This document shows positions 1-985 of a stretch of DNA of 64,000 bases, one piece after another. Each line of letters begins with the position of its first letter. Positions within the stretch are counted from its first letter, which is position 1. The notes under the pieces were generated by a model. That model saw only the letters and a program-made list of their open reading frames with translations. It did not search any database and was not told where the DNA came from. The position numbers and the translations under genes were made by a program. The stretch is from Pseudoscardovia suis (GTDB taxonomy: Bacteria > Actinomycetota > Actinomycetes > Actinomycetales > Bifidobacteriaceae). The stretch lies in NCBI RefSeq assembly GCF_002797875.1, contig NZ_PGFC01000003.1:1-64000 (forward strand), read 5' to 3'.

Positions 1-97
1 ATGTGGGCACGGCGGACGGCACGAGGACGTGAATCCCAGTGTTCGCAACGCTTCCGACGGTCAACGCCTCGGCGTTCAATCCCCCGCGGCTCCACCA
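1..97 (+). ncRNA. ssrA: 3' part of tmRNA (5' end outside window)
   Basis: The segment ends in CGGCTCCACCA (87-97), the usual 3' acceptor strand plus CCA of tmRNA, which pairs with a GGGGCYG-type 5' end lying off the left edge. Just before it is a T-arm with a TTCAATC loop (75-81) and a 5-bp stem with one C-C mismatch. A strong intrinsic terminator follows 5 nt later, as expected for a free-standing RNA gene. tmRNA with SmpB rescues stalled ribosomes. The tag-coding part is not in the window. A tRNA with the same acceptor end is the alternative, but no anticodon arm is visible upstream. Confidence 0.65.
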
Positions 98-102
98 TCA
101 TC

Positions 103-137
103 AAAGCCCCGCAGGCATCATGTCTGCGGGGCTTTTT
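103..137 (+). terminator. Rho-independent terminator of the tmRNA gene
   Basis: A perfect 12-bp stem (103-114 with 124-135), a 9-nt loop and a run of five T directly after it. It lies 5 nt after the CCA end of the RNA gene. Confidence 0.9.
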
Positions 138-220
138 CATTGCGATTGCTAGGATTCCCCAAGTACGGTCGCCGGGTTTCCTTTCCCAAGTGCAGTCGTT
201 GGTTTTCATTTGCGGTTGAT

Positions 221-985
221 GGAATTCTTAGGTGCGCCGAATATAAAAACGTCGCCGAAAAAGGAAGTTAGGAAGTCTACCAAAACCATCCAAACCTCCG
301 TATTCGGCGACTCACCAATGCACTCGCCGAAGACGGCAGTTACGGACCCCGAAAACAAGATCCAAACCTCCGTCATCGGCGACAAACCCTATACCTCGCC
401 GAAGATGGAAGTTAGGAAGCCCATGAGACCCACCCAAACCTCCGTCATCGGCGACCCAATAAACCACTCGCCGAAGACGGAGGCTACAGGACCCAAAAAC
501 AAGACCCAAACGTCCCTCTTCGGCGACAGACTCAATGCGGCGCCGAAGACGGAAGTTAGGAAGTGCATGAGACCCACCCAAACCTCCGTCATCGGCGACC
601 CAATAAACCACTCGCCGAAGACGGAGGCTACAGGACCCAAAAACAAGACCCAAACGTCCCTCTTCGGCGACAGACTCAATGCGGCGCCGAAGACGGAAGT
701 TAGGAAGTGCATGAGACCCACCCAAACCTCCGTCATCGGCGACATAATCCAGGATTCGCCGAAGACGGCAGTTACAGACCCCGAAAACTGAATCCAAACC
801 TCCCTCTTCGGCGACATACCACCCCACTCGCCGAAAACGGCAGTTACAGACCCCAATACAGAATCCAAACCTCCGCCATCGGCGAGCAATAACAAAATCA
901 CAGAAGAAGGAGGATGGATGGTTTCCTACACACAGCCTAACCTCCGTCTTCGGCGAGATAATTGAGGATTCGCTGCTCGGTGGAC
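221..985. repeat. Tandem array of hairpin units, exact 72-bp pitch
   Basis: The left arm AACCTCCGTCNTCGGCGA begins at 293, 365, 437, 509, 581, 653, 725 and 797, exactly 72 bp apart, then at 868 and 939 (71 bp). In the central units each left arm is followed, after about 13 nt, by its near-complement TCGCCGAAGACGGAAGTTA, so each unit can fold into a stem of about 18 bp. Degenerate units in the same register lie at 221-292 and after 939. A 144-bp double unit from about 422 is repeated almost perfectly from 566. Spacers between hairpins are conserved in two alternating types. Both strands stay open because the pitch is a multiple of three, but no ribosome binding site or plausible protein was found. 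Function unknown. Confidence 0.9.

Follow-up and report, generated by a model that had tools for sequence, protein, structure and literature searches.

The window analyzed here, 64,000 nucleotides from the start of contig NZ_PGFC01000003.1 of Pseudoscardovia suis, carries at positions 252–956 an array of inverted repeats that we call family I (family names, I to VII for the window's genus and VIII for a second genus, were coined in this analysis). Its 20 arms lie ten per strand at a 72-bp pitch, the + strand being A/C-rich and the − strand G/T-rich. Arms of the + strand start at 252, 324, 396, 468, 540, 612, 684, 756, 828, and 898 and those of the − strand at 298, 370, 442, 514, 586, 658, 730, 802, 873, and 944; all steps measure 72 bp except at the right end, where there is one of 70 bp (+ strand) and two of 71 bp (− strand). 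The distance between neighboring arms alternates between 45–46 and 25–26 bp: each + arm begins one of ten long palindromes (58–59 bp, with arms 45–46 bp apart; the first at 252–310), and the − arms from 298 to 873 each begin one of nine short palindromes (an arm, a 12–13-nt spacer, and an inverted arm; the first at 298–336). Tandem Repeats Finder (TRF) reports a period of 72 over 252–885 (score 429) and one of 144 over 253–820 (score 749). In keeping with the latter, a double unit is duplicated: 422–599 recurs 144 bp downstream at 566–743, 178 bases without a single difference, and 396–539 agrees with 540–683 at 140 of 144 bases. Folded as DNA, the short palindrome at 442–480 (z, −5.6 and −6.7) and the long one at 468–526 (z, −3.3 and −3.5) form hairpins on either strand. 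The initial annotation had recognized the evenly pitched inverted arms, the hairpins on both strands, and the near-perfect 144-bp duplicate, all of which are real; its limits of 221–985 were too wide.

The same annotation placed the array next to tmRNA, for which no gene was found in the window. The intact tmRNA gene of this genome (designated G000; 2.25 Mb, 90% complete) lies on another contig, at C6:58880–59276 (L135), and what precedes the array at 57–138 (+ strand) is an attR-like copy of the last 39 bases of that gene together with the 43 hairpin-bearing bases that follow (93% identity to C6:59238–59319). Window positions 1–95 are 100% identical to the end of contig C6, and positions 1–32 (+ strand) contain the last part of a phage-type integrase gene whose start lies there (locus L132 ends with window 1–95, and the frame stops at L132 1532). 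Beyond the intact tmRNA gene, holin-like and endolysin-like frames were named by eye. Because of the ssrA 3′ copy, the overlap with C6, the integrase, and the phage-like frames, the window seems to begin at the attR of a prophage, with the array outside it; the prophage, of ~35 kb, probably sits in ssrA, in the region of C6:58880–94372 and window 1–138. Two relatives, G001 and G002, have comparable pairs of ssrA-like ends ~33–37 kb apart, and in G001 the attR-like copy is adjoined by another repeat element, an inverted ~110-bp pair with GGTTTGTGGGGTC (L129, ~1690–2500). On the other side of the array, a 199-amino-acid frame without a Pfam match occupies 1179–1778 (− strand). A relative of this frame lies close to an attR-like copy in both G001 and G002, with no family-I arm between the two in either genome; no given site, therefore, needs an array.

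Several other readings were considered and set aside. The array is not CRISPR-like, as the initial annotation also held: judged by repeat structure, where a CRISPR has near-identical direct repeats and unique spacers, the arms are inverted and variable, and the spacers are duplicated along with the units. Nor is it a run of terminators, the units listed having no T run after their stems; a terminator scan, which sees only loops of 3–8, returned none in 252–956. Long open frames run through the array, 72 being divisible by 3; for family I in G000, 71-bp steps are as common as 72-bp steps (52 each), so that frames are not kept, and a protein-coding reading was rejected. An RNA family in the window was likewise rejected for want of an Rfam match at the gathering threshold (weak matches scored far below it), and loci L021 to L037 returned only tRNAs. 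A non-coding block with more than 50 bases identical between G000 and a third relative, G003, ends in a hairpin and a T run (L022 ~1600–1720; L091, reverse strand); it may be an unnamed RNA, and L022 has no Rfam match at the gathering threshold.

Family I is dispersed through G000, where 26 arrays, the smallest of four arms, were located by BLAST (40 matches) and an arm pattern search. The arm TCGCCGAAGACGG, with at most one mismatch, has 85 + 130 genome matches, beyond chance when set against 4 + 6 for a reversed-pattern control; solo or paired arms also exist outside arrays (L122, L123), and either arm can begin or end an array. The arm is bipartite (TCGCCGA-N4-GGA[G/A]GTT), with positions 2–7 conserved in no fewer than 141 of the 144 units and positions 8–11 variable. 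The long step is 46 bp in 127/144 units, and the short step is 25 bp in 68 and 26 bp in 62 of 131. Loop length is constant in 113 of 129 distinct loops, and yet equal-length loops from different arrays are only 44% identical. Two arrays with similar-looking right flanks surround an IS605-type element (tnpA and a divergent tnpB; L023 10050–11836, or G000 C1:292049–293835).

A rival reading has the arrays act at the RNA level, as transcribed hairpins that give small RNAs or that protect or end transcripts. Loops of the G/T strand do fold better (−4.73 kcal/mol) than shuffled loops (−2.77), with a slight edge over chimeras as well (−4.26; p = 0.03), and many variants at positions 10, 11, and 15 of the arm remain compatible with G-U pairing there; those of the A/C strand, however, fold no better than chimeras (p = 0.81). 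Covariation in 67 of the 144 units stays at the level of shuffled alignments (score 0.154 versus 0.157, with 310 of 500 shuffles as high), four further covariation measures were equalled by 69 to 271 of 500 shuffles, and arms pair no better with their partner inside one unit than with arms from other arrays. Every gene arrangement is represented, with 13 tandem, 6 convergent, and 5 divergent gaps among the 24 G000 arrays for which both neighbors were called (gene calls are heuristic, and a few of the 26 arrays overlap weak frames). With the missing Rfam match and a helical spacing (see below) that has no RNA rationale, this reading is very improbable, and the small-RNA source proposed in the initial annotation is not supported. 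The G/T-rich strand of the arrays agrees with local GC skew in 22 of 25 family-I arrays of G000 (p = 1.6e-4; L037 excluded), 9/11 in G003 (p = 0.065), and 6/7 for family II (p = 0.125), a link that may reflect leading-strand mutation bias.

A covariance model built from 67 family-I units and run on 189 Bifidobacteriaceae genomes, with up to 29 candidates scored per genome, matches five of them: all four of the window's genus (G000 to G003, of which G002 is MAG UBA2724 and G003 MAG SUG1663) and Bifidobacterium boum LMG 10736 (G030). The window's genome and B. boum belong to separate genera within the genome set used, and the genus Bifidobacterium, in which the initial annotation proposed to search, was not confirmed for the former. 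Among the best candidates, at most 29 per genome, matches number 29 in G000, 1 in G001, 4 in G002, 28 in G003, and 19 in B. boum, with many places counting on both strands (the four in G002 represent two places). All matches listed for B. boum fall within 14 kb (C7:258.8–272.8 kb), and parts near its arrays are 89.6–94.9% identical to G001 and 85.7–91.9% to G000; given this clustering and high identity, the stretch was probably exchanged by recombination. The same stretch contains a large frame that is adhesin- or pilin-like by eye (L089 3062–7111). In G003, spacing is unchanged, and the arms are altered to GCGCCGA...GGACGTT; both arms differ together from those of G000, which would be expected equally of a hairpin and of a binding site that they share.

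Unit number changes in whole units at fixed sites. One orthologous site holds ~three units in G000 and a single arm in G001, which supports tandem growth, as suggested by the initial annotation, or loss; only whole units changed in this comparison across species, and other empty sites were too diverged. At the same site in G002, the two ends of the array lie on two contigs, each entering sequence unlike G000. A second site, shared by its right flank only, has ~six units in G000, ~three in B. boum, and one in G001. A ~290- to 340-bp block that G000 and G003 share within an intergenic region is flanked on one side by an array in the former and on the other side by an array in the latter, each with the arm type of its genome; arrays can therefore also settle at new places. 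The mobile sequence suggested in the initial annotation may yet be right: array positions differ between related species, but neither a transposase nor a target duplication nor fixed ends came to light. One family-I array of G002 is seemingly split by an insert, perhaps a mobile element (L115 ~1100–2001 and L099 3550–3732).

Arrays of other sequence occur throughout the genus. In G001, the site orthologous to L026 is occupied by an array of unrelated sequence at a 74-bp pitch, family II (GAGGGTGCA-N6-TGCRCCCTC; 74 bp in 44 of 47 steps), which is present in all four genomes of the window's genus and in 5/189 family-wide, the fifth being marginal (up to three candidates scored per genome). The pattern of family III (73 bp) has 110 + 62 matches in G001, none in G000, 6 + 4 in G002, and 1 in G003, against 0–4 per strand for reversed-pattern controls; the pattern is palindromic, such that hairpins may count on both strands. 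G001 also has families IV (73 bp), V (84 bp), and VI (72 bp), and G000 has family VII. The prevailing family depends on the species: family I in G000, a variant of it in G003, and family III, which is abundant, in G001. Permissive family patterns also match hairpins without array spacing (31 family-I-like in G001 and 11 in G022), which we took as chance. Outside the genus, G011, a single-contig genome, has five arrays of family VIII (L233, two in L235, L239, and L240; 72–73 bp in 19/22 steps), which speaks against an assembly artefact.

Arrays are unevenly distributed among genomes. In samples of 20 20-kb pieces, with an array defined as a TRF period of 40–160 and a score of at least 100, G001 yielded 33 arrays and G022, a complete genome of B. 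boum's genus, 3; these counts include coding repeats, and ~24 of the 33 in G001 are palindromic and non-coding by eye. G017, also of B. boum's genus, had no array in the 200 kb sampled. A G000 sample of 20 stretches avoided known family-I arrays, and its count therefore gives no family-I density. Palindromes of the form GACCGATTC..GAATCGGAC stand in G022, which is otherwise array-poor, at a 51-bp spacing that is off the helical ladder (L191 5781–8183). These distributions bear on whether the arrays are neutral minisatellites, grown by slippage or unequal crossing-over from palindromes that were incidental starting points. Shifts in copy number by whole units, and the 178 bases duplicated without difference in the window, are what such growth would leave; against it are the same arms at 26 sites, the length kept while loops diverge, the helical spacing, and the scarcity of such arrays in the sample of G022 and their absence from that of G017. 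We disfavor minisatellites, which we rate as improbable, because one arm sequence is dispersed to many sites.

Across families, hairpin-to-hairpin distances are 70–72 bp (I), 73–75 bp (II), 72–73 bp (III), 73 bp (IV), 84 bp (V), and 72–73 bp (VI), with a mixture in family VII (51–53, 73/74, 83/84, 105–107, 114–117, 127, and 189/190 bp). In a scan of 6–20 bp, spacings over these seven families best match multiples of 10.50 bp, which is the helical repeat of B-DNA. Under a grouping of our own that dropped singleton classes (81, 153, 193; 114; 188; 127) together with any multiple of a family's modal spacing and that did not count spacings above 200 bp (210, 226, 281, 330), Monte Carlo p values are 5e-6 (12 classes), 2.5e-5 (family VII alone), and 6e-4 (one mode per family) against a null uniform over 45–195 bp, and, in a second run to which family VIII, measured later, contributes 72.8, they are 7e-6 (ten classes) and 8e-5 and 4.5e-4 (similar classes merged) against a null uniform over 45–125 bp. 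Families I, II, III, IV, VI, and VIII all stand at 71–74 bp and may share history; the family I mean of 71.3 bp falls 2 bp short of 73.5, and the G022 arrays at 51 and 107 bp are off-phase. As a control, seven spacings of parS-like sites in G000 gave p = 0.17; these belong to a cluster of TGTTTCACGTGAAACA sites (L231 17812–19315, or C5:117812–119315), which we take to be, probably, parS near the replication origin. Together with the constant loop length, the spacing tests support the selection on regular spacing proposed in the initial annotation, although phasing could be a product of unit duplication.

For 25 family-I arrays of G000, the flanking sequences were mapped onto G001, G002, and G003. 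In G001, 9 of the 15 sites with a flank match carry an array, intact or as a relic, of one family or another no farther than ~1 kb away: family I at L028 left and L031 first, family II at L026, family III at L023 first, L023 third, L027, and L029 (assigned by a tRNA gene match alone), a 72–73-bp array at L033, and an 84-bp array at L022; among the other six, L034 and L035 first were unread. Relative to 24–33 arrays per 400 kb, 9/15 has a p of 5e-5 to 5e-4, and 7/15, with one-unit and solo-arm cases dropped, a p of 0.002 to 0.013 (without L029, 8/14 at 2e-4 to 0.002 and 6/14 at 0.008 to 0.034), values that are suggestive only, because arrays gather in long intergenic gaps. Elsewhere, hairpins of family II occur at the L036 site in both G002 and G003, the L021 site has an array in none of the three relatives, the L026 site is array-free in G002 and G003, and the L032 site is array-free in G003; clean empty sites are lacking, the intergenic sequence being mostly too diverged for comparison. 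Geometry rather than sequence might be what is conserved, in a chromosome-architecture element whose whole-turn palindrome arrays would serve as local topology sites for a protein recognizing phased palindromes, with one family replaced by another at the same sites between species; we regard this generalization as rather doubtful.

Integron attC sites are bounded by AAC and GTT, and the arrays could resemble them as single-strand recombination sites. The short palindrome is preceded by AAC and followed by GTT, each at most 14 nt away, in 149/282 family-I matches (both strands; reversed-motif control, 9) and in 80/112 family-V matches, but there the control reaches 62. The bounds recur in only 10/177 matches of family II, 0/72 of III, and 0/56 of VII, and a 72-bp pitch leaves no room for cassettes, making this explanation extremely improbable.

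The array belongs to a class of tandem palindrome arrays that lie between genes, with many sites and several families. MITEs are short, non-coding, many-copy elements with inverted arms, fixed ends, and a target-site duplication; our arrays are likewise short, non-coding, and of many copies with inverted arms, but they are organized in tandem, and neither constant ends nor a target duplication has been seen at the sites read, where arrays begin and end with either arm. BIMEs of Escherichia coli, as described in PMC2817692, are intergenic palindrome arrays of alternating orientation that are dispersed in one genome, and PMC6379681 links DNA gyrase to BIME-2, whose arrays of REP palindromes the enzyme binds and cuts. 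The 26 family-I arrays of G000 share with BIME-2 their intergenic palindromes, alternating arms, and many sites per genome; they differ in the absence of a conserved GTAG-type tag and of a detected RAYT, in having several unrelated families in one genus, in their near-whole-turn spacing, and in belonging to a different phylum. REP palindromes are reported to carry a GTAG/GTGG tag at one end (PMC3733652, PMC6006769), and for family I no such tag is conserved in the 67-unit alignment or the arm profiles. PF01797, the profile used to look for a RAYT, which according to PMC6006769 covers TnpAREP only in part, matched none of the four other carrier genomes (G000 to G003 are 82–91% complete and G030 is 99%; G011 lay outside the search). 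Its sole match in G000 is the tnpA beside tnpB of the IS605-type element; a RAYT looked likely because G000 yielded no other Y1 transposase and this one has an array on either side, and the candidate was dropped on account of its IS605-type arrangement and the 0/4 result elsewhere. Since family I has no conserved GTAG tag and the search for a RAYT came up empty, we do not claim membership in REP/BIME. Among the papers listed by literature searches, none describes such arrays in Bifidobacteriaceae in its title or the opening of its abstract.

The REPINs of Pseudomonas fluorescens, as presented in PMC3116915, comprise several families with some tandem clusters and, in group GI, inverted arms 71 bp apart; they are mostly single, and each group's clusters adjoin a RAYT. 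Inverted arm pairs, several families per genome, and tandem clusters are common to both systems, whereas in ours arrays prevail among the loci read and no RAYT was found; the REPIN distances (71 and 110 bp) are not both whole turns. The likeness raises a tentative but serious possibility: that the arrays are selfish REPIN-like repeats without host function, that each species was invaded by a family of its own, and that the helical spacing arises incidentally from a duplication or insertion complex whose working requires helix faces to be aligned. Such an origin would explain why the prevailing family differs among G000, G001, and G003 and why, in an intergenic region common to G000 and G003, the two genomes have their arrays at different places, and it has a parallel in the several families and tandem clusters described in PMC3116915. 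It fits less well with the failed search for a RAYT, with the fact that no target duplications or fixed array ends were seen, and with the occupation of the same orthologous sites by different families.

We favor, with a probability of about 0.45, a reading by analogy with BIMEs and REPINs in which these helix-phased arrays would act on duplex DNA as platforms on which a DNA-binding or topology protein lands; a purely selfish origin, the main rival, comes close in probability, and any gain for the host is conjectural. Constant length at 44% loop identity, near-whole-turn spacing, no excess of covariation, and no tie to gene ends all point to duplex DNA, and we infer that the arrays function in that form. 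Palindromes every seven turns (8, 10, or 11 in other families) would all point to one side of the helix and could be joint landing sites for one protein, making each array a local topological or architectural site. Binding of gyrase, IHF, or Pol I is a mark of REP/BIME elements, and candidates here would be gyrase, by analogy with E. coli BIME-2, or a nucleoid protein; no binding protein was found in this analysis. Units would grow and shrink through recombination between copies, and new sites would be colonized by machinery that is apparently unlike a RAYT.

In the literature cited here, REP-like repeats come with a sequence tag and a RAYT, neither of which was found for the class in Bifidobacteriaceae. 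The arrays of Bifidobacteriaceae fall into several unrelated sequence families, and their unit spacing fits the DNA helical repeat. Predictions of open frames, hairpins, or small RNAs within such arrays may be artefactual. If the favored reading is true, function (a palindrome on the same helix face) would be separable from sequence, and the effect of BIME-like arrays on chromosome topology would be testable by half-turn shifts in spacing.
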